From positions 1-64,000 of IMG/VR virus record IMGVR_UViG_3300028197_001237: a stretch of 64,000 bases of DNA, one strand, 5' to 3'. Both the position numbers and the translations under genes were made by a program. This document shows positions 9,177 to 57,118 of the stretch, in pieces. The notes below the pieces were generated by a model that was not told where the DNA came from, made no database searches, and saw only the letters and a list, made by a program, of their open reading frames with translations. The number at the start of each line of letters is the position of its first letter. Position 1 is the stretch's first letter. Source of the stretch: a virus.

Positions 9177-9797
9177 ATGGCATTTCAATCAGTATGGTAT
9201 TATACGGATATACCTGAAGAAGTGGTTGACCTGATCGAGAAAGACCTAACTGAGACATTTGATCCTCAGATGGGCGATTCTCGACTCATGGGAGACGCAC
9301 TGAACAAAGAAAAAAGAAACTCCAAAAACGCATGGGTTCCCACCAATCATTGGTTAGGTGGGTTTATGTGGCATTATATTTCTAGAGCAAATAGAGAAAA
9401 CTTCTTATATGATCTGAGGTGTATTGATGGTGAATCAATGCAATACACTCAGTATGATGTTGGTCAATTCTATAGTTGGCACAATGATGCTGGTATTGCT
9501 GGAGCGTATAAACCAGCAACGGTTGGTAATAGAATGGAAGGACTTGCACAAGACTTTGTAAATGAGAATACTGAACTTGTAAGGAAGCTTTCTTTTGTCC
9601 TGCAACTATCAGATCCTGATGATTATGAAGGTGGAAATCTTCAAATGTTAGATGAATCTGGTAATAATTACTTTGCTCCAAGGAAAAGGGGAACTATTAT
9701 TCTCTTTGATTCAAGAACGATGCATAGGGTTCTTCCTGTAAAATCTGGTCTCCGTAAGTCTATCGTTGGATGGACTGTCGGACCTCGTTGGAAGTGA
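9177..9797 (+). CDS. 2-oxoglutarate/Fe(II)-dependent oxygenase (PKHD/PiuC-like), 206 aa
   Basis: The double-stranded beta-helix signature is clear. The HxD iron ligands are His102 and Asp104 ('YSWHNDAG'), the distal His is His183 ('TMHRV'), and the 2-oxoglutarate-binding Arg is probably Arg193 ('GLRKSIVGW'). Such enzymes hydroxylate protein side chains or small molecules using O2 and 2-oxoglutarate. Many T4-like cyanophages carry them near fibre genes, so hydroxylation of virion proteins is a reasonable but unproven idea. The start and the 36 bp before it resemble the broken copy at 23083-23160. The next gene begins 8 bp after the stop. Confidence 0.85.
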   Translation: MAFQSVWYYTDIPEEVVDLIEKDLTETFDPQMGDSRLMGDALNKEKRNSKNAWVPTNHWLGGFMWHYISRANRENFLYDLRCIDGESMQYTQYDVGQFYSWHNDAGIAGAYKPATVGNRMEGLAQDFVNENTELVRKLSFVLQLSDPDDYEGGNLQMLDESGNNYFAPRKRGTIILFDSRTMHRVLPVKSGLRKSIVGWTVGPRWK

Positions 9798-9804
9798 GGT
9801 AGAT

Positions 9805-10533
9805 ATGGCAGAACATATGACATTGGAACAACTTCAGTTCCAAGAGAGGGTGCATACTGGATCATCCTGGACAAAGAATGAACAGTTTGACAAAGATGGA
9901 TATATTGTAGTTAAAGATCTGTGGGATCCAGAGGAATTAATTGTTCCTGTTCCAGAGATGAGGGGACAAATGAACTATTGGGGTAAGAAAGAAGATCAAT
10001 TTAGTTTTGATCCTTTGGAAGGTCAAGTAGAAGGATCATTAGCTTGTTACACTCGTCCACAATATCGTCACATTCACATAGGTATTCGTCAGAAACTTGA
10101 GAAAGTAATTGGTAGAAAGTTATGCAATACTTACTACTATGATCGTTTCTATTTTGCAGGACAGGGTCTTTCTTTACATGCGGATAGACCAGCATGTGAA
10201 ATTTCTGTGAGTGTTCACATCAGTACCAATCTAGAAGAATGTTGGCCTCTGTGGATCAAGACACCTGATACATATTCCGAACCAAAGAATAGGGGTGAAA
10301 TTGTTGAATCAGGTGAGAATAGATCAGTATGTCTGAATCCTGGTGATGGTATGATTTACAAAGGGTGTGAGAGACCACACTGGAGAGATCCTTTAGTATC
10401 ACGACATACCGGTAATTACTTTATTCGTAAGTTGGATCAGAAAGATGATACTTACTATCATCAGGTGTTCTTCCATTATGTTTTGTCTGATGGTAATAGA
10501 GCACAATGTGCAAACGATATGGCTAGGGAATGA
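9805..10533 (+). CDS. 2OG/Fe(II) oxygenase-like (phytanoyl-CoA/prolyl hydroxylase type), 242 aa
   Basis: The start at 9805 is preferred over an upstream in-frame ATG at 9766, because GTGAGGT lies just before it and the longer form would overlap the previous gene. Candidate iron ligands are His125 and Asp127 ('LSLHADRPACEISVSVHI') with a distal His192 in 'CERPHWRD'; 'NPGDGMIYKG' is the usual strand before the distal His. The reaction type is the same as its neighbours but the subfamily differs. The stop overlaps the next ATG, so the three oxygenase-type genes 9177-11144 form one translationally linked set. Confidence 0.75.
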   Translation: MAEHMTLEQLQFQERVHTGSSWTKNEQFDKDGYIVVKDLWDPEELIVPVPEMRGQMNYWGKKEDQFSFDPLEGQVEGSLACYTRPQYRHIHIGIRQKLEKVIGRKLCNTYYYDRFYFAGQGLSLHADRPACEISVSVHISTNLEECWPLWIKTPDTYSEPKNRGEIVESGENRSVCLNPGDGMIYKGCERPHWRDPLVSRHTGNYFIRKLDQKDDTYYHQVFFHYVLSDGNRAQCANDMARE

Positions 10534-11144
10534 TGAAAACTATTGACGAAATTTTCAGTGATGTGACATTGATTGGTCAGACACCTAATCTGATTCTCAA
10601 AACACAACTACCTGATAAGATCTTAGAAGAAGTGAAGGGATGGATTAAACCCTGTCGTGATATCAAAGATGATGACTATCGTGATCTCTTAAACCATCGT
10701 AATGTTGGTACAGATCACAATTCTTATCAAACCGCAGTACCCAGAAGGTTGATTGATAATTCATTCTTTCTTGGTTACATTCTTCACTTTGGTGAGTTGT
10801 ACCTCAAAACTGCTAATATTGGTGACCCAAATGCAAACATGATGGCTAGAAGATGTCACCTTCGTAATTATCCTGGACACTTTGATGGATATGATTGTTG
10901 GGTAAACTTCACTTATAAGGGTGATGACAATCCAGAACACAATCATGCTGGTGCACTCTCATCTATCATCTATATTCAAGATGAGGATTATCAACCAACA
11001 AACTTTCCTAGTATAGACTATGTCCATCAACCCAAAGAAGGAGATATTTTGTTATTTCCCTCTAATTTATTCCATAGTGTAGATACGAAGGAAACTGAAT
11101 CAGAGAGGATCAGTGCTTCATTTAACCTTGATGTGTTTAGTTGA
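10530..11144 (+). CDS. Putative 2OG/Fe(II) oxygenase, 204 aa
   Basis: The C-terminal half has the pattern of the cyanophage 2OG-Fe(II) oxygenase group: 'NPEHNHAGALSSIIYI', then 'PKEGDILLFPSNLFHSVD', then 'ERISASFNLD'. The first motif reads His-x-His rather than the classic His-x-Asp, so the metal site may be altered. The distal His in 'LFHSVD' and an Arg in 'SERISASF' fit the fold. The ATG overlaps the previous stop (ATGATGA). The gene ends in a TGATAAATA late promoter for the next fibre gene. The substrate is unknown. Confidence 0.7.
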   Translation: MMKTIDEIFSDVTLIGQTPNLILKTQLPDKILEEVKGWIKPCRDIKDDDYRDLLNHRNVGTDHNSYQTAVPRRLIDNSFFLGYILHFGELYLKTANIGDPNANMMARRCHLRNYPGHFDGYDCWVNFTYKGDDNPEHNHAGALSSIIYIQDEDYQPTNFPSIDYVHQPKEGDILLFPSNLFHSVDTKETESERISASFNLDVFS

Positions 11145-15487: not shown

Positions 15488-16093
15488 ATGTCAAAAGTGA
15501 AGGGGTTGCAGGTATATGATAATTTTTTATCTAATCAATACCTAAACCATTTAAAAGATGTGTTTATGTGGTCTCAGATGATAGATTGGAAAGTCAATCT
15601 ATCATCTAGAGGTGAGCGTGAAGAATTAGAGAAGAAAATATTTGATACTCAAATGGTGTGTGAACTAATCAAGACACCCTATTTCATATCTCCACATACT
15701 AAATTCTTGTGCCCATTCCTTGATATTATGCCGTGGACGTATAGGGCAAAAGTGAATGTAACATTCCCATCAGAAAAAGAACCATATTATCTTGGCCATC
15801 ATACAGATCAACCAGAACTAGATAAAAAGCACGATTACTACTCTGGTGTATTCTACATGAATGATAGTGATGGTTATACTGAGGTCATTGACCCTAAGAA
15901 ACTTACAAAGAAAAAAGTAGATTGTGTTGAGAATAGATTGGTAGTATTTCCAGGACATTGGAACCACACAGGGACCACACCAACAAACACCAAAGCAAGA
16001 TTTATAATCAACTTTGTATTCTTCGGTGAGTTTTATCCAGAAGATATTAGAAAAACCGAAGATAACTACATGAAACAGATGCTAAATAACTAA
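15488..16093 (+). CDS. 2OG/Fe(II)-dependent oxygenase, 201 aa
   Basis: 'LGHHTDQPE' supplies an HxD pair (His105, Asp107), 'VVFPGHWNHTG' the distal His (157 or 160), and 'KARFIINFVFF' the 2-oxoglutarate-binding Arg171. This is the fourth oxygenase-type gene in the island and is diverged from the other three, so separate acquisition is more likely than recent duplication. It has a GTGAGGT Shine-Dalgarno and lies between a chaperone-like gene and a fibre gene. Substrate unknown; fibre or host-protein hydroxylation are both possible. Confidence 0.8.
   Translation: MSKVKGLQVYDNFLSNQYLNHLKDVFMWSQMIDWKVNLSSRGEREELEKKIFDTQMVCELIKTPYFISPHTKFLCPFLDIMPWTYRAKVNVTFPSEKEPYYLGHHTDQPELDKKHDYYSGVFYMNDSDGYTEVIDPKKLTKKKVDCVENRLVVFPGHWNHTGTTPTNTKARFIINFVFFGEFYPEDIRKTEDNYMKQMLNN
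16081..16088 (+). promoter_or_regulatory. Late promoter GCTAAATA with extension
   Basis: Late motif inside the last codons of the oxygenase gene, followed by ACTAAAAAGATATCGCC and the ATG at 16106. The block matches the leader at 13926. Confidence 0.65.
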
Positions 16094-16105: not shown

Positions 16106-17572
16106 ATGGCAATCGGCAGACCTATAAATCTAACTGGCAATGTAGCCTCAAAGACGATTAGTGTAACTGCAACGGCAAACCAGACCGAGTTCACTGTTGT
16201 TGGTGGTTATCGAATTAACCAGATTGATGTTTTCAGGAATGGTGTTAAACTAACACCTCAAACTGATTTCCAAGCTGCTGATGCATCTAAAGTTGTATTA
16301 ACTACACCATCTAATTTGAATGATGAAGTATCATTTAAGATATTTGATACCTTCAGTGTGGCTGATGCCATTGTAGGTGCTGCTTCTTCACAGACTATTA
16401 ATGGTGATCTTGTAGTCACAGGTATACTTTATAGTGAAAATGGAGGAGGTAGTGGTGGAGGTAGTGTAGGTGCTGCTGGTACCTGGACTAACTACGATAA
16501 CAACACTGGTGTAACAACTACTAGTAAAGTAAAGATTCAGAATGACTTAGAAGTTACTGGAGTAACAACATCAAATGGATTTGTTGGAAGTCTTACTGGT
16601 AATGTATCTGGTAATGTTTCAGGAACTTCTGGTGGATTAATTGGAACACCAAACATTATAGTTGGTTCAGTAACAGGAACTACAGGATCATTTACTGGTA
16701 ATGTAACAATAGGTGGCACTCTCACCTATGAAGATGTTACCAATGTTGATTCTGTTGGTGTTGTAACCGCACGAACAGGAATTAAAGTTCTTGCAGGTGG
16801 CATTAATGCTGTTGGGTTAGTAACTGGAACAGCATTTGCAGGATATGATTATCTACAAGCACCTTTTAGCACTACAGTAAACTTTGCTGTAACAGTAGCT
16901 TCCAAGACCGCAGCACATAGATATAATGGAACAGGTAGTGGTAGTGGATATGTAATTGATGGAGTGCAATCTCCGTTCCTTACACTAACACCAGGTAGAA
17001 CTTACAGATTTACTCTAAGTTCAAGTGACATGACAAGTCACCCATTTAGATTCTATCTTGAGGCAGATAAAACTACAGCATATACCACGAATGTTACTTC
17101 TACAGCAACATATACTGAGATAGTTGTAACTGATACTACCCCAACTGTTCTTCATTATCAGTGTTCTGCCCATGGATATATGGGTAATGCTGTAAATACC
17201 AATTCTAATGTTGTTTCTTCTGATTTTACTGGCACAGTCAGTGACTCGATCGGTCCACTGAGAAGACTTGGCGTTAACACTAAGTCTTCTTCTTATACAC
17301 TACTTGTTAGTGACGCTGGGAAACTTATAAGATCATCAGGAAGCGGTGCTGCTATTACTCTCAACTCAGGTATATTCACTGCTGGTGATATGATTTCAGT
17401 CTTCAATGTCTCTAGCGGTAACAATACAGTCGTACAAGGTTCAGGAGTTGTATTGTATAATACTGCTAATGCAGCAACTGGAACTAGAACAATAGAACCA
17501 AAAGGAATGGCTACAATTGTTTGTATTTCTGGTTCTAATGAGTTTGCTATTTCTGGTTCACAATTAGTATAA
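16106..17572 (+). CDS. Tail-fibre protein with cupredoxin-like domain, 488 aa
   Basis: Residues 1-95 are the fibre N-terminal domain ('QIDVFRNGVKLTPQTDFQA') shared with the gene at 4051. A shaft with 'GGTLTYEDVTNVDSVGVVTAR' follows at about 200. Residues of about 250-370 look like a cupredoxin: 'FLTLTPGRTYRF', His312 in 'SHPFRFY', and Cys353/His356 in 'YQCSAHGYMG'. These match three of the four type-1 copper ligands of plastocyanin. The usual axial Met position (Cys+8) is Asn, with a Met at Cys+6. The C-terminal 100 residues ('VNTKSSSYTLLVSDAGKLI') resemble the end of the gene at 20801. Copper binding is untested. Confidence 0.7.
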   Translation: MAIGRPINLTGNVASKTISVTATANQTEFTVVGGYRINQIDVFRNGVKLTPQTDFQAADASKVVLTTPSNLNDEVSFKIFDTFSVADAIVGAASSQTINGDLVVTGILYSENGGGSGGGSVGAAGTWTNYDNNTGVTTTSKVKIQNDLEVTGVTTSNGFVGSLTGNVSGNVSGTSGGLIGTPNIIVGSVTGTTGSFTGNVTIGGTLTYEDVTNVDSVGVVTARTGIKVLAGGINAVGLVTGTAFAGYDYLQAPFSTTVNFAVTVASKTAAHRYNGTGSGSGYVIDGVQSPFLTLTPGRTYRFTLSSSDMTSHPFRFYLEADKTTAYTTNVTSTATYTEIVVTDTTPTVLHYQCSAHGYMGNAVNTNSNVVSSDFTGTVSDSIGPLRRLGVNTKSSSYTLLVSDAGKLIRSSGSGAAITLNSGIFTAGDMISVFNVSSGNNTVVQGSGVVLYNTANAATGTRTIEPKGMATIVCISGSNEFAISGSQLV

Positions 17573-37490: not shown

Positions 37491-38198
37491 ATGGCATGTT
37501 TGATTGCTAACTTACCATCTGTTGAAGTATGGGTTAGGAAAGAATATCTAACAGACCACCAGTCAGGTCATGGGGAGTTTGAGAAAGGTGTATGGGTATC
37601 TGCTAAGAGTATCCCTGGTCGAGCCTTTTACTTTGAGACATACTTACCAGAGTATGGGGCAATGTATGACAAACTACCGATCAGTGCTTTTGTATCAGAA
37701 CCAAAGACACCTGACCCTGATATGAATTTACAAAACCTACAGTTTTGGAATTGTATGGATTATGGTGTTGTTGCTGTTAATAAACAATTCATTGGTAGTA
37801 TGGACTATGAGGTCTATACAAGGAACCATGGGACCATGAAGGGGTCTTATGTGTGTACTCTTGACAACTACCATCAAGATCCTGATATCATTGATTACAG
37901 TTGTTCAGAGAATCCTTCAGAACATAAATCTCATAACTTGATTGAACTTGACAATGGACAATATGCATTGTATCCAAACAATAGAACTCGTATCTATGAT
38001 AATAGTTTAACACCTGAGAATCCAAAGATGCCAGATTTCAAAGTATCTACTCAAATCTATCAGGTAGAGTGTGGTTATGAGAAGGATGGACTTGGTGATC
38101 AGGATTCTTATTTTTGGAAGACTGCTAGAGAAAGACTAGATACTAATACTACAGAGGATAATGATGGAAGACAATCTACTTCGGGAGATAGCAAATGA
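37491..38198 (+). CDS. Conserved structural-region protein, 235 aa
   Basis: 'MACLIANLPSVEVWVRKEYL' then 'VWVSAKSIPGRAFYFETYLP' and 'MDYEVYTRNHGTMKGSYVCT'. I recognise it as a protein found beside gp25 in cyanophage baseplate operons, but not with a T4 gp number. The beta-rich first 150 residues could be a baseplate or tail-completion domain; the C-terminal 30 residues are polar and disordered. The next small gene overlaps its 3' end by 38 bp. Confidence 0.6.
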   Translation: MACLIANLPSVEVWVRKEYLTDHQSGHGEFEKGVWVSAKSIPGRAFYFETYLPEYGAMYDKLPISAFVSEPKTPDPDMNLQNLQFWNCMDYGVVAVNKQFIGSMDYEVYTRNHGTMKGSYVCTLDNYHQDPDIIDYSCSENPSEHKSHNLIELDNGQYALYPNNRTRIYDNSLTPENPKMPDFKVSTQIYQVECGYEKDGLGDQDSYFWKTARERLDTNTTEDNDGRQSTSGDSK

Positions 38199-40673: not shown

Positions 40674-43600
40674 ATGTCAGTAGATAGAGTAAAATTCCAG
40701 GACATAGTTGCCAGCCAACTTCCTTCTTTTATCAGAGATGATTTTCCTCTCCTATCAGAGTTTCTGGAACAGTATTATGTTTCACAGGAAACTCAAGGTG
40801 CGACATTAGATCTTCTTCAAAATATTGACAAATATGTCAATATTGATCAACTTACTGGTCTAAAATCTTCTACCGTTCTTCAGGTTGATATTAGTAGTGT
40901 AGATGATACAATTGTTACTGGTGTCGATGGTAATTTTACTGAAGGATTTGTTGATAATAATGGACTGATTAAAATTGATGATGAAATTATTGCATATAAT
41001 TCAAAGACTAATCTTAACTTTGAAGGATGCCAGAGAGGATTTAGTGGCACCACTTCACATACTTCTGCCAATATACCAGACAGACTATCCTTCTCAAGTC
41101 AAACTACACCCACCAATCACAAGAAAGGTGCTATAATTCAAAACCTGAATGTCTTGTTTCTTCAGGAGTTCTTTAGAAAGTTAAAGGCACAAGTAAGTCC
41201 TGGGTTCGGTGATAGAACACTGAAGACGAATCCAAAGAATTTTATTATCAATAGTAATAGTTTCTATAAGTCGAAAGGAACAGACTTATCATATAAGATT
41301 CTGTTTAAATCTCTATTTGGTGAGACTGTTGATATCATTCGCCCAAGTAGATTCCTACTCAAACCATCTAGCTCAAACTATAATGTAACAGAAGATATTG
41401 TTGTAAAGAGTTATATTGGTGATCCACTGCAACTCAAAAACCTTACATTATTTCAGAATTCAACACAAGCTCGTGGTACAGTCAACAATGTCTGTAAAAT
41501 TCAATATAATGATGGTGACTACTATCAACTGAGTATTGACTCTGGATATGATAGAGATGTTAATGTAACTGGTACAACTTACGGTAAGTTCAAACCAAAT
41601 CCTAAAACAAAACTCCTGAACACTGTTGCAGTTGGTGCAACAATCATGGATGTTGACTCTACTGTAAGTTTCCCTGAATCAGGAAAGTTAGAGATACCTG
41701 ATAGTGATGGCAATATAGTATCAATAGTATACACAGGAAAGACTGTCACTCAGTTCTTAAATGTGAGTGGAGTTAATGCTATACTCAGTGAGAAGACCGA
41801 TGTAGATCTCGATGATTATTCTTATTCTTATGTTGGTTTAGGTACTGATGACGAAGTCAGAGTAAGGATCACTTCCACACTGAAAGATCTTAAGATTCAG
41901 GATAGTGGTTTCTATAATAAGAGAGACACCATTAATATCAAGTCATTTGGTATTGAAGATGAGTCAATAAGAGGATCTGATTGGTTAGTCAACAATAAGT
42001 CAAGGTATGATGTCTCCAGCATCATTATTACTGACATTTCTGAACTTAAGTATGATGTGATAACATTCGACGATCACACATTGAAGATAGGATATAAAAT
42101 AATATTAAGTGACAATACTGGTGGCACTCTCGATGCTTCAATTATTGATATTGGAAGTAAGAAATCATTTACTATAAAGGCAAATTCATCAATTGATCTG
42201 AACAAGGTTTATAGTTTTGAGAATCAACTACTTAAAGTTTTCTCTCCGAAGTATAGTTTCCTTGGAAAGTACACTGCTAACGTTCAGAATACTTATTCAA
42301 ACTTCAATACTGATTTACTGATTGCAACCAACTCACTTCCATCTTATGGTGATCTAGGTCTTGATCCATATAATAAGACCCTGAATTTTAGTGGTTTTGC
42401 CACAGATAACATAATCAACTTTGGTTTACCTCATGGTTTCTACACTGGTGATGCGGTTTATTATCAACCAGGTGTAATAACAAATACAACAATCAACGCT
42501 GATGGAATCCCCATCACGACAACAACTGAAAGTAAATTTGAGGGAACAGAATCAGGTGTTTTCTATATTAAGAAAATCAATAATACTTCTGTCAAACTTT
42601 CAAGAAGTAGATCAGATTTATTCAGGAATGTATTTGCAAATCTAGGTGGATCTGTCAACAATAACGTCTTCACTTACTTTAGTTTCTACAACAAAACCAT
42701 TGCACCACAAGGGATCTACAGAAAGATCATTGAACCAGTCAGAGAATCTGGTCAGTTCAAAACTCTTCCAGGTTATAATGGAATATTCCTTAATGGTGTT
42801 GAACTTCTGAACTATAAGTCAGAAGATACCATCTTCTATGGACCAATTAAAAATCTAATTGTGACTGCCGGTGGTTCTGGTTATGATGTTGCCAACCCAC
42901 CTAGACTTACTATTAGGGATAATATTGGCATAGGAGCTACAGGTGTTGTTGCTGTTGAAGGTTCATTAGAAAGAATTGATATTGTAGATCAAGGTTTTGA
43001 CTTCTTGGGAACTCCTACAATATCAATTACCGGTGGCAATCCAATTAGACCTGCAAAGGCTGAAACTTCATTGGTTGACATTTTATATTCTGTCAATATT
43101 AATACTGAATTCAATGGTAATGTAAACATTGGAAACAATACTATTGGATTCTCATCATTTCATAAGTTTTCACAGAACGAGAAAATCGTTTATGATTCAA
43201 AAGAAATGAGATCTATTGGTGGACTGTCCACTAATACAACTTACTTTGCTAACGTAATTGATAACTTTAGGATATCCCTCCACACTAATGAAAAAGATTC
43301 TCAGTTAGGTATCAATACGATTACCTTCAATAATACATTTGGACAGGGAACTCAATCTTTGCATTCGGCAGAAACTAAAAAGATTGTAAGTAATATTGTT
43401 GTAACTGATTCTGGTGAAGGATACAAGAATAAAAAGAGATTAATTGTTGGTGTAGTTACTGCTACAGATTCATTCAAGATTGGTAATCATGGTTTTGAGA
43501 CGGGTGAAATAATTCAGTATACCTCAGGATCAACTGCAGTGCAAGGGATTCTAGAGAATACAAATTACTTTGTAATCAAGATTGATTCAGACAATTTCCG

Positions 43601-46600
43601 TCTCAGTGATTCCAAATCTGAATTTAATAATGGTGTCTATGTTGATATTAAAGGAGTGGGTGATGGTACTTTCAATTATGAACCAATCACTGTTAATATT
43701 AGTGGTATAACTAGAATTACCGAACGCAATGGTCAAGACTTCCAATGTAAGATACAACCTGCCTTCAGAGGTTCTATTGATTCTATTGACATTACCAATC
43801 GTGGTTCTCAGTATGGTTCTTCAGAAATCATCAATCTGAACAGAGAACCTGAAATTTTATTTGAGGGTGGACAACAAGCTCAAATCAAACCTGTCATTAA
43901 TAACGGCCGGTTTGTCGATATCATCATTGATAATTCAGGAAGAGAATATATTTCTCCACCAGATCTGATAATCATTGGAAATGGTAAGTATGCGAAACTC
44001 ACTCCCATTATCGAAAATGGAAAACTTGTAGATGTAAATATCATAAACCCTGGTATTGGTTATGTCGATGGTCAAACTTCTATTACAATTGCCAATCCTG
44101 GTAAAGGATGCGACGTAGAATCAAAGATCAATGAGTGGAGTATTAACCTTTTTGAAAGAAATAATGAGTTTGTCAATAATGACGACGGATTTGTTGATGA
44201 GAATCTTACTGGTGATAAAACAGAATACTGTCACCTATACACACCGAGAGAACTTAGAGAGTCATCTTATGTTCTAAAGAACAATGGTGATTCATTCTAT
44301 GGTATTGCTGACTTAGAAAAATCTAATGGTATTGAGATATCTAACAGTCACCACTCACCAATTATTGGTTGGGCATATGATGGAACTCCAATCTATGGTC
44401 CTTATGGGTATTCCACTCCTGAGGGTGGTGTAATCAAACAGATGAGAAGTGGTTATGAGTTGAATGTCAACCTTACCAATAGACCTTCTCCCAGTATATA
44501 CCCACAAGGATTCTTTATTGAAGATTTTCAGTTCACTGGTGTTGGTGACCTAGATGTTCATAATGGTAGGTTCTGTGTCACTCCAGACTATCCTGCAGGG
44601 GTCTACGCGTACTTTACGACGTTAGAACCAAATGTTGAGGCTCAAGGTCCATTTAGGAACTATAAAAAACCACAGTTCCCATATATTATTGGAGATACAT
44701 TTCATTCCAAGAGAATTGAGTTTAACTATAGTGTAGAATCAAACCAAACAGACTATGACATTCAAAAAAATGAGTGGTTCAGAAATACAAGGTCATATAA
44801 TACTAATAACCTCTATAGTGGATATGATTACATCTTTAATTCTAACAAAATTAAAAGACAAACCATAGAAGTAACGGGTATTAATCCTGGATTTATCAGT
44901 GGCGTTGGTATCTTTACTGGTGGCAGAAACTATCAGGTTGGTGAAAGAGTTATCTTTGATAATAAACAATCAGAAGGTAAAGGTGCTCAGGCAAGAGTCA
45001 GTTATGTTAATGGTAAAGAAATAAACACTGTAAGTATCGCTACTACTCTAACTCCAAACGTTGAGTTTATCAAATACTTTGGTCTCCAACAGTTTATTGG
45101 TTTCAGCTCACAACCACACAACTATCAGGACCAAGAATTAGTCAATGTCAGTGGTCTCTCCAACTACTACAAAGGTTTTGATGGACCATATAATGTTGGA
45201 GTAAGATCAGAAACTTTTGTTACTATTCTTGGTATTGGGACAGCATCTGCAACTGGTATTGCCACATACTTATATGTTGGTGGTGCTTTAGAGTTTCCAT
45301 TTATTAGACCAAATGACATTCTGGGTATTGGAACAGAAAAAGTCAAAGTTCTCAATATTGAAGAAGAAAGTCAGAGAATTCGTGTTCTCAGAGAACAGGA
45401 ATCGACAGTAGGTCTTGCTTATTCAACAGGTCAAATTCTGATTGGTGATCCAAGAAAGTTCACTATCAATGTTGGAACTCTAACGACAGATAAGTCATTC
45501 AGAGTAAATGAAGAATTGTACTTTGATCCTCCAGAGGCAGTCGGTATCGGAACGACCACTGGCAACGGTGTAGGAACCCCTGTAACGTTCAGAAACCCAG
45601 GTATAGGGGCAACTACCCTATTCATTGAACCACAGTCAATCTACTACAAAAATCATGGTCTGAAACTGAATGACAAGGTTGTTTATTCATTGAATGGTGG
45701 AACATCAATCGGTGTTTATAATGGTATCTCTGATGCCAACCTTACCGATTATAGTGAACTATATGTAGCTCCATTAACTAATAATTTCATCGGTATCTCG
45801 TCGCATAAAGTTGGTATGACAACCACTGGTACCTATGTTGGTATCGGAACTACAACCGGTCTCTTATTTTTCAGAGATACTGGAACAGGTGATCATCATA
45901 GCTTCAAGACGGTAAGATCTGATATTCTAAGAACTCAGGTAAGTCGTAATATTGTTACTGTTTCAACTGCAACTACACATGGACTGAGACCAAATAATAA
46001 TGTAAGAGTCAATATCAAACCAACTGATATCCAAACAGTTGATGTGAGATTTAATAAATTTAATAGAAGAATTGTATTCAATCCTATTGGTTTTACCTCT
46101 GAAAATGTTGACACCACACTCAATACATTGTATATCTCTAACCATGAGTTTTCTCTTGGTGATAAAGTAGTTCATCAATCTTCATCTCCTGCAGGGGGTT
46201 TAGTGAACGAGAAGATGTATTATGTGATTCCTTATAGTAGAGATGAAATCAGACTGGTAGAAGATAAGTACCAGATCAATGAAGAGGAACCAATCTTTGT
46301 AGGTATTACAAGTACAGGTCTTGGCGGCACTATCTCCAAGATAAACCCCCTTACTAAGACTAGAAAAAATAATAATCTTAAGTTTGATCTTTCGGATCCT
46401 TCACTCTCATTCCTCTCGAATGGTGTGAAGTATCCAGCATTCAAGATGTTTGTATATCTTGATCAAGAGTTCAATAAAGAGTTTGTCACTACTGGAACTA
46501 AGACAGATAATAAATTTGAAGTGTCTCGTAGTGGATCAGTTGGTATCACATCTGATGCTAACCTGACTATTGAAATTACTGACGATGTGCCTTCCAGACT

Positions 46601-49600
46601 TTATTATAAGTTTGATGCAATCAATATCGACATTATTAGTATTGATCAGAGGGGTCTTATCCTTGATACTGAGGTTTCGCCATATAATCAGATCAATATT
46701 GAGAAGAGTGGATATGATGGTATCCAAAGACTAATTGGTGCTAGTGGAACTTCATTCACATATGAATTAGATTCTGTTCCAGAGTCTCTGTTATACAATA
46801 GTAAAAATTCAATCCCCACGTATGATACTGATTCCAAATCAGTCTTCGGATCAATCTCTAATATTGAGATGATCAGTAATGGTAGTGGATATACAAAACT
46901 TCCTTATGTCAAAGGAGTTAATAGTGGTATTGGAACTAATGCAATTTTAGATGCTCAAACTAAAGATATTGGTAAGATTCTGAATCATCGTTTTGATTCT
47001 GACAATATTGGTTTTGATTATCCAACTGACGAAACATTAAGACCTGTGGCTAATCTTCCAGAAATTCTGGAAATGGAGTCGCTAACATCCTTTGAATCTA
47101 TTGGTATCACTTCGTTTGGTAGAAACTACCTCCACCCAGCAAAACTAGTAGTTATTGACGGATACACTAATAAAGTTATTCCTGAGGTAGATCTGAGATA
47201 TCAGATTGGTGACACAACAGTTAAGATTTTGAATAACACTACAGGAATGTATGATGTTATGCCAAGAATTATCCCAACACTGAACACAAATGGTGTTGGT
47301 ATCTCATCAATCATATTTGATTCAACAACTAAGATTGTAAGACTTCTTCTCAATCAATCATTCCAGGATGAAAGAGACTTTCCATTTGATGTTGGTAGCA
47401 ACATCCTTATTGAGAATATAAGTGTTGGTCTCAATACTGCATCAAAGGGATATAACTCTTCGGTATATGAATATGATTTGTTCCCAGTAACTACAATATT
47501 TCCACAGTATGGGGGCACTGGAGCTTACATTGAGTATAGCCTCAAAGATCACCTTAAAGATGGTGAGTTTCCAGGAAAAGTAGAACCACTGACCACACTT
47601 GGTCAGGTTGTTGCTGAAAATGATTTCCCAACCTTTACTGCTAAACTGACCACTAATGACTACTTCGATGGTGAAAGAGTAGTCAATGGAGAAAACACCG
47701 GTATCGTTGAATCTTGGACATCAAGTCTCGATCAATTGAAAGTAGATACCCCTAAGGACTTCAAAGTGGGTACGGTTGTAAGAGGTGAGAGTTCTAATAC
47801 TCAAGCCGTTGTTATGAAGAAGTATGAGTTTAATGCAGAAATTACAACCGGTGTCGGTGCTACTATTATTCATGGTTGGCAAGATAACATTGGTTTCTTA
47901 AATGATAATCTACAGGTTATTCCTAATAACGAATACTATCAGAACTTCTCATATTCACTATCAAGTAAAGTTCCGTATGATCAGTGGAATGATCCAGTAA
48001 GTAACCTAGGTCATACTGCCGGTTTTGCTAAGTTTGCTGATTATCAATTAGTAAGTAAAGAAACTAATCCAGGTAAAGGTATCATTCAATCAGAAGATGC
48101 AAATGTTGAGGTTGTTATTGATATCATCGGAGAAGGTGATCTGAATTGTTATTATAACTTTGATTTTGTATCAGAAGGAACACAGTATATTAATGGTGTT
48201 CTTGCATCTAATGAAATTTTCTTTGAGAATAGACTCCTTACAGATTACTTCCAGTCAGTCGGTAACAGAGTTCTTTCAATCGATGATGTTAGTGATCAGT
48301 TCAATAGCAATGAAAGAGCTGAGAAATTTTCTAAGGTTGATGATTTTGAATCAAACTACATTCTGAATAAGATTTTTACTTTTGTTAAGGATGACGTATT
48401 TACAAATGAGAGACAATTCTCTGTTGTCAATATGCTTCATAATGGTATTATTGGTTACTCTAATGAATATGGTACAGTTTCAACTTATCCACCACTTGGT
48501 TTCTATGGTTATATTCAATCTGGTACTGGTTGGAGTCTGACATTTAATCCAATTAAATTCCAATATAACGCATATCAAACTGCAACAGTGGCTATCAGTC
48601 TCCTCGATGGTGTGGCTGGTGTGGGATCTACTTCTCTTGGTGATGTTTTAAGTATAGAGAGTGATCAAGTAAATATTAATTTTGGATCTACCACAACAAT
48701 CGCTTCCTTCCCAACATCTAACAAAGCAGCTAAACTTTGTGTTTTGGCAAAGGGCACATCTGGAATTCATTCTGGTCAGTATGATGCATCAGATATTAAT
48801 ATTGTCCATGACGGAACTACTGTATCAATGGTTCAGTATGGTGATATACAGACTAGTTTTAACAACTTAAACAGTGGTTTTGGAACATATAGTTCTTATA
48901 TTGACGGTGGTCTTGTCAAGATTGATTATCATCCAAGTTCTTCTGGCAGCATTGAGCATCAGTCTCAGATGACAGTGTTTTCTGGAGTTGGTACGAGTAC
49001 CGGTGATCATACATTGAGAACTGGTAGAATAAAATCTTCTTATACTTCTATCGCATCTTCTGGATCACCATTACCAGTCGCAATCTCCTCTTACAATGAT
49101 CCATACTCAGCAAACTATAGTATTGTAGTTGTAGAAGACACTACAAATAATGACTTTGAGATGTTTGAGTTGGGTATGTGTAACTCGACATGGAATGAGG
49201 TTCTCACCGATTGGGCTTACACTAGAACCTCTGGTACTCTTGGACAGATTGGTGTAACATCAACAACAACTAAGAACATCACATTCACCCCAAATCCAGG
49301 TATAGATGTTAAAGTCAGAACCTTTGGTATTGATTTGATGCTCTATCCCGGTGTCATTAATGATACTGAACTTAAAATGAACAACCTTGAGATTACAACA
49401 GGTGATGGTAGTTATCGTGGAACTAAACTTGATCTTAAGTCTCAATTTGGTCTCAATCACAAAGGACTTGAGATCTTCAGAAGAGTAATTGATGGTAGTG
49501 ATACTAGTACTGTTAGTACTACAGCTGACACAGTTACTATTCCAAACCATTTCTTTGTTACTGGTGAAAAGCTTCAATATTCCCATGTTGGATCTGGTAC

Positions 49601-52600
49601 ATCTCAAGCAATTAGTATCGCACCTACCTCAATCTCTGGTGTAACTACTGATAAGTTACCTGAAACACTATATGTTATAAAGGTTGATGAGGGTAGAGTA
49701 AGGTTCGCTGATACTGCAGAAAATGCACTGTCATTAACACCAATATCTCTTGATATTACTGGAGTTGGTATTGGGGAATCACATGTCTTCACATCCACCA
49801 ATCAAAATGCTAAGGCTTTGATTGCTGTTGACAACATGATTCAATCACCTATTACAGAGACATCTATTACAACGAATTTGAATCAAGATATAATCTTTGA
49901 TACGGTCTTCGATGTTACTGGTATCACATCGTTTGCAAGTGGTGATATTGTCAGAATCGATGACGAATATATGATTGCAGATGCTGTTGGTATTGCTGGT
50001 TCAACTAGACTCGGTGTTAGAAGAGCACAACTCGGTACTGGAATTGGTCTTCATACCACGGGAACAACAATTACCAAGATCACTGGTAGTTACAACATCA
50101 CTGATAGTACTGTCAACTTCTCTTCATCTCCATATGGTAAAACACCACTGAGTACAACGGCTACAGCTGATCCAGACTCTAGAGATTGGACTGGTATCAC
50201 TACTAGCTCTAGTTTCCAGGGCAGAACTTTCATGAGAAGATCTGGTGCTGGTAGAACTGAAGATACCTACTCAAATAACTATGTCTTTGATGATATCTCA
50301 AATAAGTTTAATGGTATTGGTACAGTATTCACTCTTCAAAATAATGGTAACAATACTACTGGATACTCTACTGATAACGGTATTATCCTTCTGAATAATA
50401 TCTTCCAGGTTCCAAAAGGAGCACAAGTTGGTGATGGAACGTATCATATGGAAGAGAGTGTAGGTGTTACCTCTATTTCATTCACTGGTGTAGGTATTGC
50501 CGCAACAAATGGTTATGATCCAAACTCTGGTGATGTCCCTATTGGTGGATTAATCATCTCTGTTGGGTCTGAATCTGGATTTGGTTATCAACCTCTCGTA
50601 TCAGCTGGTGGAACAGTTACAGTTTCTGCAACTGGTTCAATCACTAATGTTAGTATCGCCAATAGTGGTTCTGGTTACAGGGCTGGTATTCAAACGGTAG
50701 TTAATGTTGGTGTTCAAACTGATGGAGAACCAAATCTTCAGTTTATCGGAACAGCATCTATTAGTGGTGGCAATATTGTTAGTGTTAATATTACAAATCC
50801 TGGTAGTGGTTACACTTCTACTAACCCACCATCTGTAGTGTTTGACGAACCACTTTCGTACTCTAATATTCCTGTAGAGTACAGTGGTAATGTTGGAGCT
50901 GGAAAGAGTGCAACAGTTAATATTGTTGTTGGTCAAGGGTCTAGTGTTATTGACTTTGAATTTAGATATGGTGGATATGGTTATGGCGAGGGTGAAGTTC
51001 TTACCGTACCAGTTGGTGGACCTACAGGTATCCCTACAGATCCATCACTTGCATTTGAAGAATTCCAAATTAATATCGATGAGATCTTTACTGATAAGTT
51101 CAATGGAATATCTATTGGACAACTTCAAGTTCTTGATAAGTTTGATAATCTATTTAACGGTTCAGATAAGGACTTTAGACTTCTTATTGATGGAGAACCT
51201 GTTTCTATTCAATCGGCTAAGGGTTCAAACATTGAAGTTGACCAGACACTTTTGATTTTCCTCAATGATGTTCTTCAGGAACCCGGTAAATCTTATATCT
51301 TTAACGGTGGATCAACTATTAAGTTTGCAGAATCACCCAAGTTTGGTGATACTTCTAAAGTTTTGTTCTATAAAGGTAGTGGAGACATTGATGTTATCTT
51401 TACTAATGTACTTGAGACGGTGAAAGTTGGTGACACTCTTGATATTAACAATTTCCCACCTGATCAAACAATCATCTTTGACCAAGAACCAAGAACAGTA
51501 ACTGGTATCAATACTCTAGATTCTGTTCAGACGGTCACCTATCTAAATCCTGGTATTACTAGTGATAGAAGTGTTCTCAGACCAGTAACATGGTGTAAAC
51601 AAACTTCGGATAAGATTATTAATGGTAAACCTATTGGTAAGAGTAGGGTTAAGTATGAACCATTTGTTCAACCAACTTCTTACTTAATTCAATCAGTTGG
51701 TTTGGGTTCTACAGAAGCCTATGTTGATAATGTCAGACCTCTGTTTGATTCAAATAATGAAAGTCAAATTAGAAGTTTCCAGAGAGAAATTACACTCACT
51801 TCACAAGATAATATTGTGGGGGCTTCTGGAACAGCTATTGTATCTACATCTGGTATAATTACCAGTATTTCAATAACTAACTCTGGTGTTGGTTATACTG
51901 TAGCACCTTCGGTGACTATTGGTTCTTATAGTGGTGTTTCTGAATCGACAGCAACGGCTGCCATTTCAGGTGGTCAAGTAACATCAGTTACTATTACCGA
52001 TGGTGGTAGTGGATACTCTGATGTTCCAGTTGTTCTCTTTGAACAACCAAAACTCATTCAAGAGAAGATAAATGTTTCTTCTTATGAGGGTGATTATGGA
52101 ACCCTTGTTGGTTTTGGTACCACAACTGTTGGTAATGATACTAGAGTGATCTTTGACTTTTTCATCGATTCACAATCATTCTTGAGAGATACGAAATATG
52201 TTGGTACGGCTATCACAGTCAGTGGAATCTCAACTGGTGACTTCTTCACCATATACAATAGTAACATTGGAGATGATACATTTGTTTCAATGTCTAATGA
52301 TAACACAACAATTGTTGGCATTACAACCATTAACATTGATGGTATCTGGTGTGTCAAAGATGCTCAAACATTAACAACTAATGTCATTGGTATTGGTAAC
52401 ACAGTAGTGAGGAGAGTATTCTGCAACATCTCTGGTCTAAGTACAGCTTCATTCTCATCCACTTTCCTAACATTTGATTCAACACTCTTTACATATGATA
52501 CGCAGGAGGTTGAAGTGTTCACTGGTGGTATTTCATCTTCCTTTAGTTTTGGTAAGTTTAGCTGGGGTAAAATTAATTTTGAACCTAGAATATCAAGTAG

Positions 52601-52697
52601 GGAGTTTAATTCTTATAATAATAATGGTTATGTTGGTATTTCGTCAGCTGGTCTTGTTCAAAGAACGAATCCATTGAAGTTTGTTAATTACATCTAA
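40674..52697 (+). CDS. Giant baseplate/virion protein with YHYH domain, 4007 aa
   Basis: N-terminus 'FIRDDFPLLSEFLEQYYVSQ' is typical of the cyanophage giant virion proteins downstream of gp6; position suggests a gp7-like wedge role, but T4 gp7 is only about 1030 aa. 'LIKIDDEIIAYNS' with 'FEGCQRGFSGTTSH' (about 98-130) recurs in altered form near 3100. A YHYH domain lies at about 1220-1320 ('GWAYDGTPIYGPYGY' and 'NGRFCVTPDYPAGVYAYF'). At least eight short beta repeats with G-S-G-Y cores are scattered from about 725 to 3780. One uninterrupted frame of 12 kb. Probably a long periplasm- or capsule-contacting baseplate component; enzyme activity not evident. Confidence 0.8.
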   Translation: MSVDRVKFQDIVASQLPSFIRDDFPLLSEFLEQYYVSQETQGATLDLLQNIDKYVNIDQLTGLKSSTVLQVDISSVDDTIVTGVDGNFTEGFVDNNGLIKIDDEIIAYNSKTNLNFEGCQRGFSGTTSHTSANIPDRLSFSSQTTPTNHKKGAIIQNLNVLFLQEFFRKLKAQVSPGFGDRTLKTNPKNFIINSNSFYKSKGTDLSYKILFKSLFGETVDIIRPSRFLLKPSSSNYNVTEDIVVKSYIGDPLQLKNLTLFQNSTQARGTVNNVCKIQYNDGDYYQLSIDSGYDRDVNVTGTTYGKFKPNPKTKLLNTVAVGATIMDVDSTVSFPESGKLEIPDSDGNIVSIVYTGKTVTQFLNVSGVNAILSEKTDVDLDDYSYSYVGLGTDDEVRVRITSTLKDLKIQDSGFYNKRDTINIKSFGIEDESIRGSDWLVNNKSRYDVSSIIITDISELKYDVITFDDHTLKIGYKIILSDNTGGTLDASIIDIGSKKSFTIKANSSIDLNKVYSFENQLLKVFSPKYSFLGKYTANVQNTYSNFNTDLLIATNSLPSYGDLGLDPYNKTLNFSGFATDNIINFGLPHGFYTGDAVYYQPGVITNTTINADGIPITTTTESKFEGTESGVFYIKKINNTSVKLSRSRSDLFRNVFANLGGSVNNNVFTYFSFYNKTIAPQGIYRKIIEPVRESGQFKTLPGYNGIFLNGVELLNYKSEDTIFYGPIKNLIVTAGGSGYDVANPPRLTIRDNIGIGATGVVAVEGSLERIDIVDQGFDFLGTPTISITGGNPIRPAKAETSLVDILYSVNINTEFNGNVNIGNNTIGFSSFHKFSQNEKIVYDSKEMRSIGGLSTNTTYFANVIDNFRISLHTNEKDSQLGINTITFNNTFGQGTQSLHSAETKKIVSNIVVTDSGEGYKNKKRLIVGVVTATDSFKIGNHGFETGEIIQYTSGSTAVQGILENTNYFVIKIDSDNFRLSDSKSEFNNGVYVDIKGVGDGTFNYEPITVNISGITRITERNGQDFQCKIQPAFRGSIDSIDITNRGSQYGSSEIINLNREPEILFEGGQQAQIKPVINNGRFVDIIIDNSGREYISPPDLIIIGNGKYAKLTPIIENGKLVDVNIINPGIGYVDGQTSITIANPGKGCDVESKINEWSINLFERNNEFVNNDDGFVDENLTGDKTEYCHLYTPRELRESSYVLKNNGDSFYGIADLEKSNGIEISNSHHSPIIGWAYDGTPIYGPYGYSTPEGGVIKQMRSGYELNVNLTNRPSPSIYPQGFFIEDFQFTGVGDLDVHNGRFCVTPDYPAGVYAYFTTLEPNVEAQGPFRNYKKPQFPYIIGDTFHSKRIEFNYSVESNQTDYDIQKNEWFRNTRSYNTNNLYSGYDYIFNSNKIKRQTIEVTGINPGFISGVGIFTGGRNYQVGERVIFDNKQSEGKGAQARVSYVNGKEINTVSIATTLTPNVEFIKYFGLQQFIGFSSQPHNYQDQELVNVSGLSNYYKGFDGPYNVGVRSETFVTILGIGTASATGIATYLYVGGALEFPFIRPNDILGIGTEKVKVLNIEEESQRIRVLREQESTVGLAYSTGQILIGDPRKFTINVGTLTTDKSFRVNEELYFDPPEAVGIGTTTGNGVGTPVTFRNPGIGATTLFIEPQSIYYKNHGLKLNDKVVYSLNGGTSIGVYNGISDANLTDYSELYVAPLTNNFIGISSHKVGMTTTGTYVGIGTTTGLLFFRDTGTGDHHSFKTVRSDILRTQVSRNIVTVSTATTHGLRPNNNVRVNIKPTDIQTVDVRFNKFNRRIVFNPIGFTSENVDTTLNTLYISNHEFSLGDKVVHQSSSPAGGLVNEKMYYVIPYSRDEIRLVEDKYQINEEEPIFVGITSTGLGGTISKINPLTKTRKNNNLKFDLSDPSLSFLSNGVKYPAFKMFVYLDQEFNKEFVTTGTKTDNKFEVSRSGSVGITSDANLTIEITDDVPSRLYYKFDAINIDIISIDQRGLILDTEVSPYNQINIEKSGYDGIQRLIGASGTSFTYELDSVPESLLYNSKNSIPTYDTDSKSVFGSISNIEMISNGSGYTKLPYVKGVNSGIGTNAILDAQTKDIGKILNHRFDSDNIGFDYPTDETLRPVANLPEILEMESLTSFESIGITSFGRNYLHPAKLVVIDGYTNKVIPEVDLRYQIGDTTVKILNNTTGMYDVMPRIIPTLNTNGVGISSIIFDSTTKIVRLLLNQSFQDERDFPFDVGSNILIENISVGLNTASKGYNSSVYEYDLFPVTTIFPQYGGTGAYIEYSLKDHLKDGEFPGKVEPLTTLGQVVAENDFPTFTAKLTTNDYFDGERVVNGENTGIVESWTSSLDQLKVDTPKDFKVGTVVRGESSNTQAVVMKKYEFNAEITTGVGATIIHGWQDNIGFLNDNLQVIPNNEYYQNFSYSLSSKVPYDQWNDPVSNLGHTAGFAKFADYQLVSKETNPGKGIIQSEDANVEVVIDIIGEGDLNCYYNFDFVSEGTQYINGVLASNEIFFENRLLTDYFQSVGNRVLSIDDVSDQFNSNERAEKFSKVDDFESNYILNKIFTFVKDDVFTNERQFSVVNMLHNGIIGYSNEYGTVSTYPPLGFYGYIQSGTGWSLTFNPIKFQYNAYQTATVAISLLDGVAGVGSTSLGDVLSIESDQVNINFGSTTTIASFPTSNKAAKLCVLAKGTSGIHSGQYDASDINIVHDGTTVSMVQYGDIQTSFNNLNSGFGTYSSYIDGGLVKIDYHPSSSGSIEHQSQMTVFSGVGTSTGDHTLRTGRIKSSYTSIASSGSPLPVAISSYNDPYSANYSIVVVEDTTNNDFEMFELGMCNSTWNEVLTDWAYTRTSGTLGQIGVTSTTTKNITFTPNPGIDVKVRTFGIDLMLYPGVINDTELKMNNLEITTGDGSYRGTKLDLKSQFGLNHKGLEIFRRVIDGSDTSTVSTTADTVTIPNHFFVTGEKLQYSHVGSGTSQAISIAPTSISGVTTDKLPETLYVIKVDEGRVRFADTAENALSLTPISLDITGVGIGESHVFTSTNQNAKALIAVDNMIQSPITETSITTNLNQDIIFDTVFDVTGITSFASGDIVRIDDEYMIADAVGIAGSTRLGVRRAQLGTGIGLHTTGTTITKITGSYNITDSTVNFSSSPYGKTPLSTTATADPDSRDWTGITTSSSFQGRTFMRRSGAGRTEDTYSNNYVFDDISNKFNGIGTVFTLQNNGNNTTGYSTDNGIILLNNIFQVPKGAQVGDGTYHMEESVGVTSISFTGVGIAATNGYDPNSGDVPIGGLIISVGSESGFGYQPLVSAGGTVTVSATGSITNVSIANSGSGYRAGIQTVVNVGVQTDGEPNLQFIGTASISGGNIVSVNITNPGSGYTSTNPPSVVFDEPLSYSNIPVEYSGNVGAGKSATVNIVVGQGSSVIDFEFRYGGYGYGEGEVLTVPVGGPTGIPTDPSLAFEEFQINIDEIFTDKFNGISIGQLQVLDKFDNLFNGSDKDFRLLIDGEPVSIQSAKGSNIEVDQTLLIFLNDVLQEPGKSYIFNGGSTIKFAESPKFGDTSKVLFYKGSGDIDVIFTNVLETVKVGDTLDINNFPPDQTIIFDQEPRTVTGINTLDSVQTVTYLNPGITSDRSVLRPVTWCKQTSDKIINGKPIGKSRVKYEPFVQPTSYLIQSVGLGSTEAYVDNVRPLFDSNNESQIRSFQREITLTSQDNIVGASGTAIVSTSGIITSISITNSGVGYTVAPSVTIGSYSGVSESTATAAISGGQVTSVTITDGGSGYSDVPVVLFEQPKLIQEKINVSSYEGDYGTLVGFGTTTVGNDTRVIFDFFIDSQSFLRDTKYVGTAITVSGISTGDFFTIYNSNIGDDTFVSMSNDNTTIVGITTINIDGIWCVKDAQTLTTNVIGIGNTVVRRVFCNISGLSTASFSSTFLTFDSTLFTYDTQEVEVFTGGISSSFSFGKFSWGKINFEPRISSREFNSYNNNGYVGISSAGLVQRTNPLKFVNYI

Positions 52698-55714: not shown

Positions 55715-57118
55715 ATGGCTATTTCATTTCCATCCAATCCTACAGTTGGAGAACAATACACTGCAGCAAGTATTACTTGGGAGTGGAATGGATCTTCATG
55801 GGAATCTCTTCCTCCCAGTCCTGGTATCGGACTTACAAATCTATCTGTAACACAAAGTGCTGTAGGGACTGCAGCACTTTCTTATAATAATTCAAGCGGT
55901 GCCTTCTCTTATACACCACCAGATCTTTCTAGTTATCTAACATCATATACAGAAACAGACACTCTCTCATCTGTAACTGGTAGAGGTGCTATCACTAATA
56001 CTAATCTTACTTTTGGTGGTGGACTGAATGTGTCTGGTATTTCTACATTCTCTGGTAACGTTAATTTAAGTCAGGCAAATGTTGTACTTGGGGTGAGTAC
56101 TGGATCTAGTGATGATAGATTAAAGTTTCATACTTCTGAAATTTATCAAGATACTCTTGCTTTCAGAATTATTAGTAATACTGGTGGAATTAATTTAAGA
56201 GGTGGATCTACAAACTCTTGGACAAATGCATCAGGAGCTGAAGAATATATCACCGCTACTGAAAATGGTTCTGTAGATCTTTATTATGACAACTCCAAGA
56301 AACTTGAAACCACTACTAGTGGTGTAAAAATCACAGGAGAGTCGAAAAGCGATTCAATAACACTCGAAGGTAGATCCTTTAGTATTTTGCCTAGTGGATC
56401 ACAAGATGTAACATTCCAGAATACATTTACTGGTGGTAAAATTGTTCAGCGCGCTGCTGGTGATGTAGAGATACAGGGTTATCAAGGATCTACTTTGTTG
56501 AAAACAAACACTGGTGCTGCACTCACAGGTGGAATTAAATTATATTATGCTAATGGTCTTACCACAGAAGTTGAAAGACTTACAACTACTTCAAATGGTG
56601 TAGACATTAATGGTAATTTAAATGTAAGTAGTAATATTACAGTTGGTTCTGGTCAATCATTTGGTTCAAGCACTGGATCTGCTGCGGTCTATTATGGTGA
56701 TGGATCTAATCTTACTGGTGTTGGTGGTGGACTTAGTTCAAGATCTGTAGTATCAGCAACTACAGGATCTGTATCAGTTGGAGCAACAACTAATTTAGAT
56801 ATAACTGGATTTAAATCCTATGGACTTTTAAAAGTTGGAATTAGTAGTGCTGCTTGGGTAAGATTATATGTTGATGCATCATCTAGAACTTCAGATTCTT
56901 CAAGATCCTACTTAACAGATCCAACTCCAGGGTCTGGATTGATAGCAGAAGTTCGTACAGTAACTGCTGGTATATCAACTTTCTTAATGACACCTGGTGT
57001 TATTGGTTATAATAATGATGCTTCTGTTGGATCTACAATATATACAGCAGTAACAAATAATGAATCCTCATCATCAACAATTACTGTTGATTTAACTGTA
57101 CTTAAGATGGAGAACTAA
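55715..57118 (+). CDS. Virion fibre-like protein, 467 aa
   Basis: N-terminus 'FPSNPTVGEQYTAASITWEW' with 'NGSSWESLPP' is a tail-fibre attachment domain frequent in cyanophages. Then a shaft with 'GLNVSGISTFSGNVNLSQ', 'SVDLYYDNSKKLETTTSG' (typical fibre/endosialidase-like text) and 'YYGDGSNLTGVGGG' near 330. The last 130 residues ('SRSVVSATTGSVSVGATTNL') form a terminal beta-domain. The stop codon's A begins the ATG of the protease gene, suggesting that the two products act together. Confidence 0.7.
   Translation: MAISFPSNPTVGEQYTAASITWEWNGSSWESLPPSPGIGLTNLSVTQSAVGTAALSYNNSSGAFSYTPPDLSSYLTSYTETDTLSSVTGRGAITNTNLTFGGGLNVSGISTFSGNVNLSQANVVLGVSTGSSDDRLKFHTSEIYQDTLAFRIISNTGGINLRGGSTNSWTNASGAEEYITATENGSVDLYYDNSKKLETTTSGVKITGESKSDSITLEGRSFSILPSGSQDVTFQNTFTGGKIVQRAAGDVEIQGYQGSTLLKTNTGAALTGGIKLYYANGLTTEVERLTTTSNGVDINGNLNVSSNITVGSGQSFGSSTGSAAVYYGDGSNLTGVGGGLSSRSVVSATTGSVSVGATTNLDITGFKSYGLLKVGISSAAWVRLYVDASSRTSDSSRSYLTDPTPGSGLIAEVRTVTAGISTFLMTPGVIGYNNDASVGSTIYTAVTNNESSSSTITVDLTVLKMEN

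Follow-up and report, generated by a model that had tools for sequence, protein, structure and literature searches.

A cupredoxin-like domain with a predicted amicyanin-type copper site in tail-fibre and baseplate proteins of marine phages

The fibre gene, its neighbours and a second copy

The window, by which we mean the whole stretch of DNA that was analysed (64,000 nucleotides), belongs to a virus record of 89 kb with T4-like baseplate genes. The source is a T4-like marine phage whose host is probably cyanobacterial. One of its fibre genes encodes a protein that can be divided as follows:

16106–17572, + strand: fibre-like structural protein with a cupredoxin-like domain, 488 aa; matches phrog_30742 (E 3.8e-69) and phrog_18345
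16106–16480, + strand: N-terminal region, residues 1–125; tblastn matches to residues 1–110 in S-B43, RB11-B and others
16523–16852, + strand: repetitive, shaft-like region, residues 140–249; TGxVTGxVSG repeats and a match to phrog_6942 (tail fibre)
16853–17218, + strand: cupredoxin-like domain, residues 250–371; profile match, AlphaFold2 model and fold matches
17258–17569, + strand: C-terminal domain, residues 385–488; tblastn matches restricted to residues 377–487 in S-CBS2 and S-B28

The N-terminal region is probably the part by which the fibre is attached, and the repetitive region would form its shaft. Judging by tblastn, the N-terminal part is common to cyanophage fibres, and the C-terminal domain is common to cyanophage fibres that have no cupredoxin. 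In the match to phrog_30742, a tail-fibre family, positions 305–481 align with residues 231–403 of the protein. Pfam and NCBIfam give no match to this open reading frame, and the baseplate domain PF07880 is absent from it.

Three 2OG-Fe(II) oxygenase-like genes lie amid the fibre genes (window 9177–9797, 10530–11144 and 15488–16093, all + strand), and the last of them stops 12 bases upstream of the cupredoxin fibre gene. Their products might modify fibre proteins. Farther along the same strand come a phage ferredoxin-type gene (37491–38198; phrog_3704, E 1.8e-114), and an open reading frame of 4007 aa (40674–52697) with a YHYH domain at residues 1222–1321 (PF14240, E 3e-26). A gene for a subtilase (S8) protein, at 57118–58782 (+), sits between fibre and baseplate genes.

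The window holds a second copy of the domain, in a baseplate protein, and the record as a whole holds these two copies:

52722–55685, + strand: second domain-bearing protein, 987 aa; PF07880 above cut-off at residues 6–75; phrog_677, baseplate wedge-fibre connector
54006–54380, + strand: second cupredoxin copy, predicted ligands His498, Cys539, His542 and Met545; profile match and motif

The N-terminus of this larger protein (residues 6–75) is the N-terminal domain of T4 gp9/10, and its cupredoxin copy is 66% identical to that of the fibre.

Predicted copper ligands

Four codons of the fibre gene specify the residues that we predict to be copper ligands:

17039–17041, + strand: CAC, His312, predicted type 1 copper ligand 1; invariant, and aligned with a histidine of nitrite reductase
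17162–17164, + strand: TGT, Cys353, predicted thiolate ligand; invariant
17171–17173, + strand: CAT, His356, predicted type 1 copper ligand 2; conserved, with one exception among full-length copies
17180–17182, + strand: ATG, Met359, predicted axial ligand at Cys+6; invariant, amicyanin spacing

An initial annotation of this DNA had picked out the two histidines and the cysteine within residues of about 250–370, and the codons, together with a profile match that spans 250–371, place them there. It had also noticed, correctly, that the residue at Cys+8 is asparagine (Asn361) and that a methionine (Met359) sits at Cys+6; from this it took the axial position to lack its methionine, and here we disagree. 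Amicyanin binds copper through His53, Cys92, His95 and Met98, i.e. C-x2-H-x2-M (PMC12723479). Methionine at Cys+6 is thus the normal arrangement in that protein; the loop Cys353-x2-His356-x2-Met359 has the same spacing, all four classical type 1 ligands are present, and the notion of an absent axial ligand can be rejected (PMC12723479). The distance from the first histidine to the cysteine is 41 in the fibre domain versus 39 in amicyanin.

Nor does the motif look accidental. The pattern [YFWH]xCxxHxxM occurs twice only in the six reading frames of the 64 kb, each time inside a copy of the cupredoxin domain, and the four ligands are the sole invariant columns among diverse copies (see below); we therefore reject chance as its origin.

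The first histidine is followed by Pro313, and by proline in 35 of 37 diverse copies; the same His-Pro pair at a type 1 ligand also occurs in multicopper oxidases. The asparagine that in amicyanin follows the first histidine, and tunes the copper site (PMC12723479), is thus replaced in the fibre domain, and the spectroscopy may differ as a result.

Predicted fold

Two AlphaFold2 models were made. That of the window copy was built from an alignment of 61 close relatives and has a pLDDT of 84.7 overall, rising to 90–98 in the core blocks. That of the gp9 copy is independent, comes from 49 sequences, 46 of them gp9, and has a mean pLDDT of 93.7. Both models are Greek-key beta sandwiches like those of solved cupredoxins. 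In the window model, His312 lies immediately ahead of strand 74–77, and the cysteine, second histidine and methionine lie between the last two strands, 108–113 and 121–125: the canonical places for these residues.

When the window-copy model was compared with the PDB by Foldseek, rusticyanin came top (E 5.5e-4, probability 1.00), followed by copper nitrite reductase, a pseudoazurin with an engineered amicyanin loop, and amicyanin; a small number of sandwiches that are not copper proteins (SO1698, IL-18 receptor) stand among these matches. Four chains reached E<=0.001, all of them rusticyanin, and the TM-scores are modest, 0.4–0.5. The gp9-copy model gave 19 PDB chains at that threshold, every one a copper protein (rusticyanin, nitrite reductase, amicyanin or laccase), and matched rusticyanin at E 5.2e-5. 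VIA-align superposed 92 residues of each model on nitrite reductase 2dv6, with Z 8.9 and rmsd 2.9 for the window copy, and Z 10.7 and rmsd 2.1 for the gp9 copy. The original suggestion of a cupredoxin-like domain in a tail fibre is upheld by these models and by matches led by copper proteins; pseudoazurin, against which the initial annotation proposed to compare a predicted structure, is among the type 1 copper proteins that were matched.

Viral proteins turn up in fold searches, too. Three BFVD entries named 'Beta-sandwich proteins' (A0A481Z6J5, A0A481YY19 and A0A481Z7Q7), from giant-virus contigs (Pithovirus and Marseillevirus-like), match the window-copy model at E of about 1e-8, and the viral proteins that match its fold also include a phage protein with a YHYH domain.

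Sequence profiles and domain libraries

Profile searches of the PDB point the same way as the models. With profile A1, type 1 copper proteins are the top three of six matches: nitrite reductase 6hbe (E 0.002), 4kns, deposited as a multicopper oxidase type 1 (E 0.003), and pseudoazurin 3tu6 (E 0.04), after which comes titin at noise level. With the gp9 profile (A2), all nine matches are type 1 copper proteins. The best of the nine, 2vmj (E 0.0021), is according to its PDB title a nitrite reductase with a grafted amicyanin loop, CTPHPFM, and in the alignment histidine stands opposite histidine and C..H..M opposite C..H..M. One by one, these E-values to copper proteins are weak (the best is 0.002), and it is their consistency that carries the point as far as sequence goes.

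The fibre domain falls below every Pfam cut-off and has no match to PF00127 (Copper-bind), whose curated cut-off no copy tested attains, although distant phage copies come close, at best 20.8 bits against 21.2. Several of these distant copies have sub-threshold matches to PF00127 or PF13473 (Cupredoxin_1) at the ligand region, and 15 of 61 family members match Pfam Cu-oxidase weakly. Neither copper nor cupredoxin is named for this domain in Pfam, PHROGs or NCBIfam.

Conservation of the ligands

The four ligands are invariant wherever they are covered in 78 aligned copies. A more demanding comparison uses 37 copies that are <70% identical to each other and are drawn from fibres, gp9, gp10-like and S8-protease proteins, the podovirus P-GSP1 and pelagiphages. 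Just four of the 96 columns are invariant in this set, and they are exactly H, C, H and M; a random draw of four columns from 96 would hit the ligands with a chance of about 3e-7. Outside the ligands, identity within the domain falls to 15–30%.

Relatives found by means of a motif will tend to possess it, and two motif-free controls were run for this reason. The distant copies among the 37 had been gathered with motif-containing profiles, which favour copies that keep the motif, and this makes the set less independent than the controls. In the first control, for which the query ended before the cysteine loop, CxxHxxM was present in 100 of the 100 relatives long enough to tell. In the second, gp9 orthologues were fetched by residues 1–305, which exclude the ligands, and HP...CxxHxxM was found in 77 of 77 untruncated sequences, in the form of 12 different loop sequences. 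With the motif in every untruncated copy of both controls, circularity can be set aside.

In the iterated profile, eight members seemed to lack ligands (seven 'GC--' and one 'G---'), but what matches there is a TGNVTG-type shaft repeat, and the domain is not involved. Genuine exceptions are limited to one HCNM copy (L222), in which asparagine replaces the second histidine, and two copies that are truncated at the end of a contig.

These results bear directly on what the domain is for. Immunoglobulin-like sandwiches are frequent in phage structural proteins, and free copper is low in the cytosol; the fibre domain could, accordingly, be a metal-free adhesive or spacer of this sort, in which the His, Cys and Met are remnants. 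The initial annotation had itself offered a simply robust knob as one option. Both ideas are weakened by the finding that the ligands alone are invariant as the remaining domain drifts, and remnants would vanish, not persist in all 77 gp9 orthologues and all 100 motif-free matches. We regard a metal-free knob as quite improbable. Without a bound metal it would be hard to explain why four residues that share no other role remain unchanged as everything around them diverges.

Which metal is the next question. Type 1 sites take other metals in vitro, and this one might, its cupredoxin fold kept, hold Zn(II), Fe(II) or Ni(II) in vivo, or else act as a thiol redox switch. Iron is used by other phage fibres (PMC11705849), and the three 2OG-Fe(II) oxygenases close to the fibre genes would also fit. 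In this topology, however, His-Cys-His-Met is the set classically used for copper, and the axial methionine is no less invariant than the others; for a thiol switch there is no nearby second cysteine with which to form a disulphide, the only cysteines of the fibre protein being residues 353 and 473. Another metal, or a switch, is on this evidence very unlikely. Since His-Cys-His-Met in a cupredoxin fold is what type 1 copper sites use, we infer copper, and consider it quite likely that the predicted site binds it.

Distribution among phages

The two window copies match the gp9 profile (E 1e-11 and 1.6e-10), from which it follows that the gp9 set and the window set are homologous. Searches of phage records found 352 with the copy from P-SSM2 and 349 with the gp9 copy from S-SSM5. 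Nearly all of the matching records are Synechococcus and Prochlorococcus phages, and most of these divergent copies belong to the protein annotated as baseplate wedge tail fibre connector (gp9) of T4-like cyanophages. Beyond these, the domain is present in Methylophilales phage Melnitz, Pelagibacter phages Mosig and Baldr, and the podovirus P-GSP1. The initial annotation had called a copper-type fold in a fibre unusual. The literature searched bears this out, but nature does not: such a domain is found in about 350 phage records. A bacterial origin of the domain was considered and rejected: among 84,980 genomes of bacteria and archaea that were scanned, it turned up at just four loci, spread over two Prochlorococcus assemblies and one archaeal MAG, and these loci are probably phage DNA.

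The N-terminal part of gp9 finds eight Aeromonas phage records, but Aeromonas is absent from the domain matches; the cupredoxin thus seems to have been added to gp9 in the marine lineages. Copies can also occur in pairs: a protein of phage S-BM3 annotated as peptidase S8 carries two, and one fibre protein (L077:4980–5816) has tandem copies with all four ligands in both.

The cupredoxins known so far carry electrons or form domains of oxidases. In T4, gp9, which couples the long fibres to the baseplate, links fibre binding to the baseplate switch, as do the fibres themselves. It might be supposed that copper on the fibre or baseplate exchanges electrons with a copper or redox protein of the host surface, or is recognized by one, and so acts in adsorption or baseplate triggering; this would be for copper what the 'Trojan horse' idea of tail fibres is for iron. 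The complete type 1 ligand set and the concentration of copies in gp9 and fibres are in keeping with this, as is the proposal that iron on the HxH motifs of tail fibres aids attachment (PMC11705849). The domain is present, however, in many different proteins—gp9, gp10-like, S8-protease and podovirus proteins—and this fits a general module better than it fits a single receptor. A redox role, though conceivable, finds no support here, and the exchange or recognition just described seems unlikely.

A copper-binding module on the virus particle?

The sequences and models are best explained by a cupredoxin whose amicyanin-type type 1 site is complete, housed in a tail-fibre or baseplate protein, and the domain is best read as a copper-binding, structurally stabilized module exposed on baseplate and fibres. 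The fibre protein would be synthesized and assembled in the host, with the beta sandwich forming a knob between shaft and tip. Its preformed His-Cys-His-Met site would take one copper ion per domain, from sea water or from copper freed at lysis. The ion would hold in place the loop that joins the last two strands, and the exposed knob would become rigid and protease-resistant for attachment to the host. Free copper is very low in the cytosol where phage structural proteins are synthesized; this counts against copper, and because of it loading probably occurs at or after lysis. The account as a whole, copper and stabilization included, we think reasonably likely; attachment is its weakest step.

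The evidence suggests that the particles of the phages with this domain may carry copper. It would be a larger claim, and at present an improbable one, that marine T4-like phages as a group bear dozens of type 1 (blue) copper centres on their baseplates and fibres, and that the loading or redox state of this copper acts in attachment or baseplate firing. Ocean virus particles would in that case also be a pool of copper-binding ligand.

We found no description of a phage-tail cupredoxin module in the literature searched (open-licence papers), and papers on the tail structure of Anabaena phage A-1(L) and on S-CREM2 mention copper only in connection with grids. The fold and the site are known; what did not turn up in that literature is a recurrent phage-tail module in which the ligands are invariant. 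A complete type 1 site as the most conserved feature of such a module in abundant ocean viruses would add copper to the metals of virions, so far a short list. There would also be a directly testable link between trace-metal chemistry and the infection of Prochlorococcus and Synechococcus. A domain now called only 'tail fibre' or 'hypothetical' in libraries acquires a label at the level of function.

Comparison with known systems

Amicyanin of Paracoccus denitrificans resembles the phage domain in its set of His, Cys, His and Met, in its C-x2-H-x2-M spacing and in its fold. It differs in being a soluble electron carrier of methylamine dehydrogenase, with no phage context, and in having asparagine where the phage domain has proline. 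Rusticyanin and the three-domain copper nitrite reductase are the best fold matches of the phage domain, but they are longer proteins or enzyme domains, and the ligand loops of rusticyanin differ in length from those of the phage domain. Among phage families, phrog_30742 includes this domain, yet is annotated as tail fibre only.

The nearest published idea concerns iron: the HxH motifs of phage tail fibres, such as T4 gp37 and that of Alteromonas phage R22Y, bind this metal, and a role in attachment has been suggested (PMC11705849). There, as we propose here, a metal is held by residues of the fibre (PMC11705849), with the difference that the iron sites are octahedral and made of paired histidines in the fibre tips, whereas the copper would reside in a folded type 1 domain.
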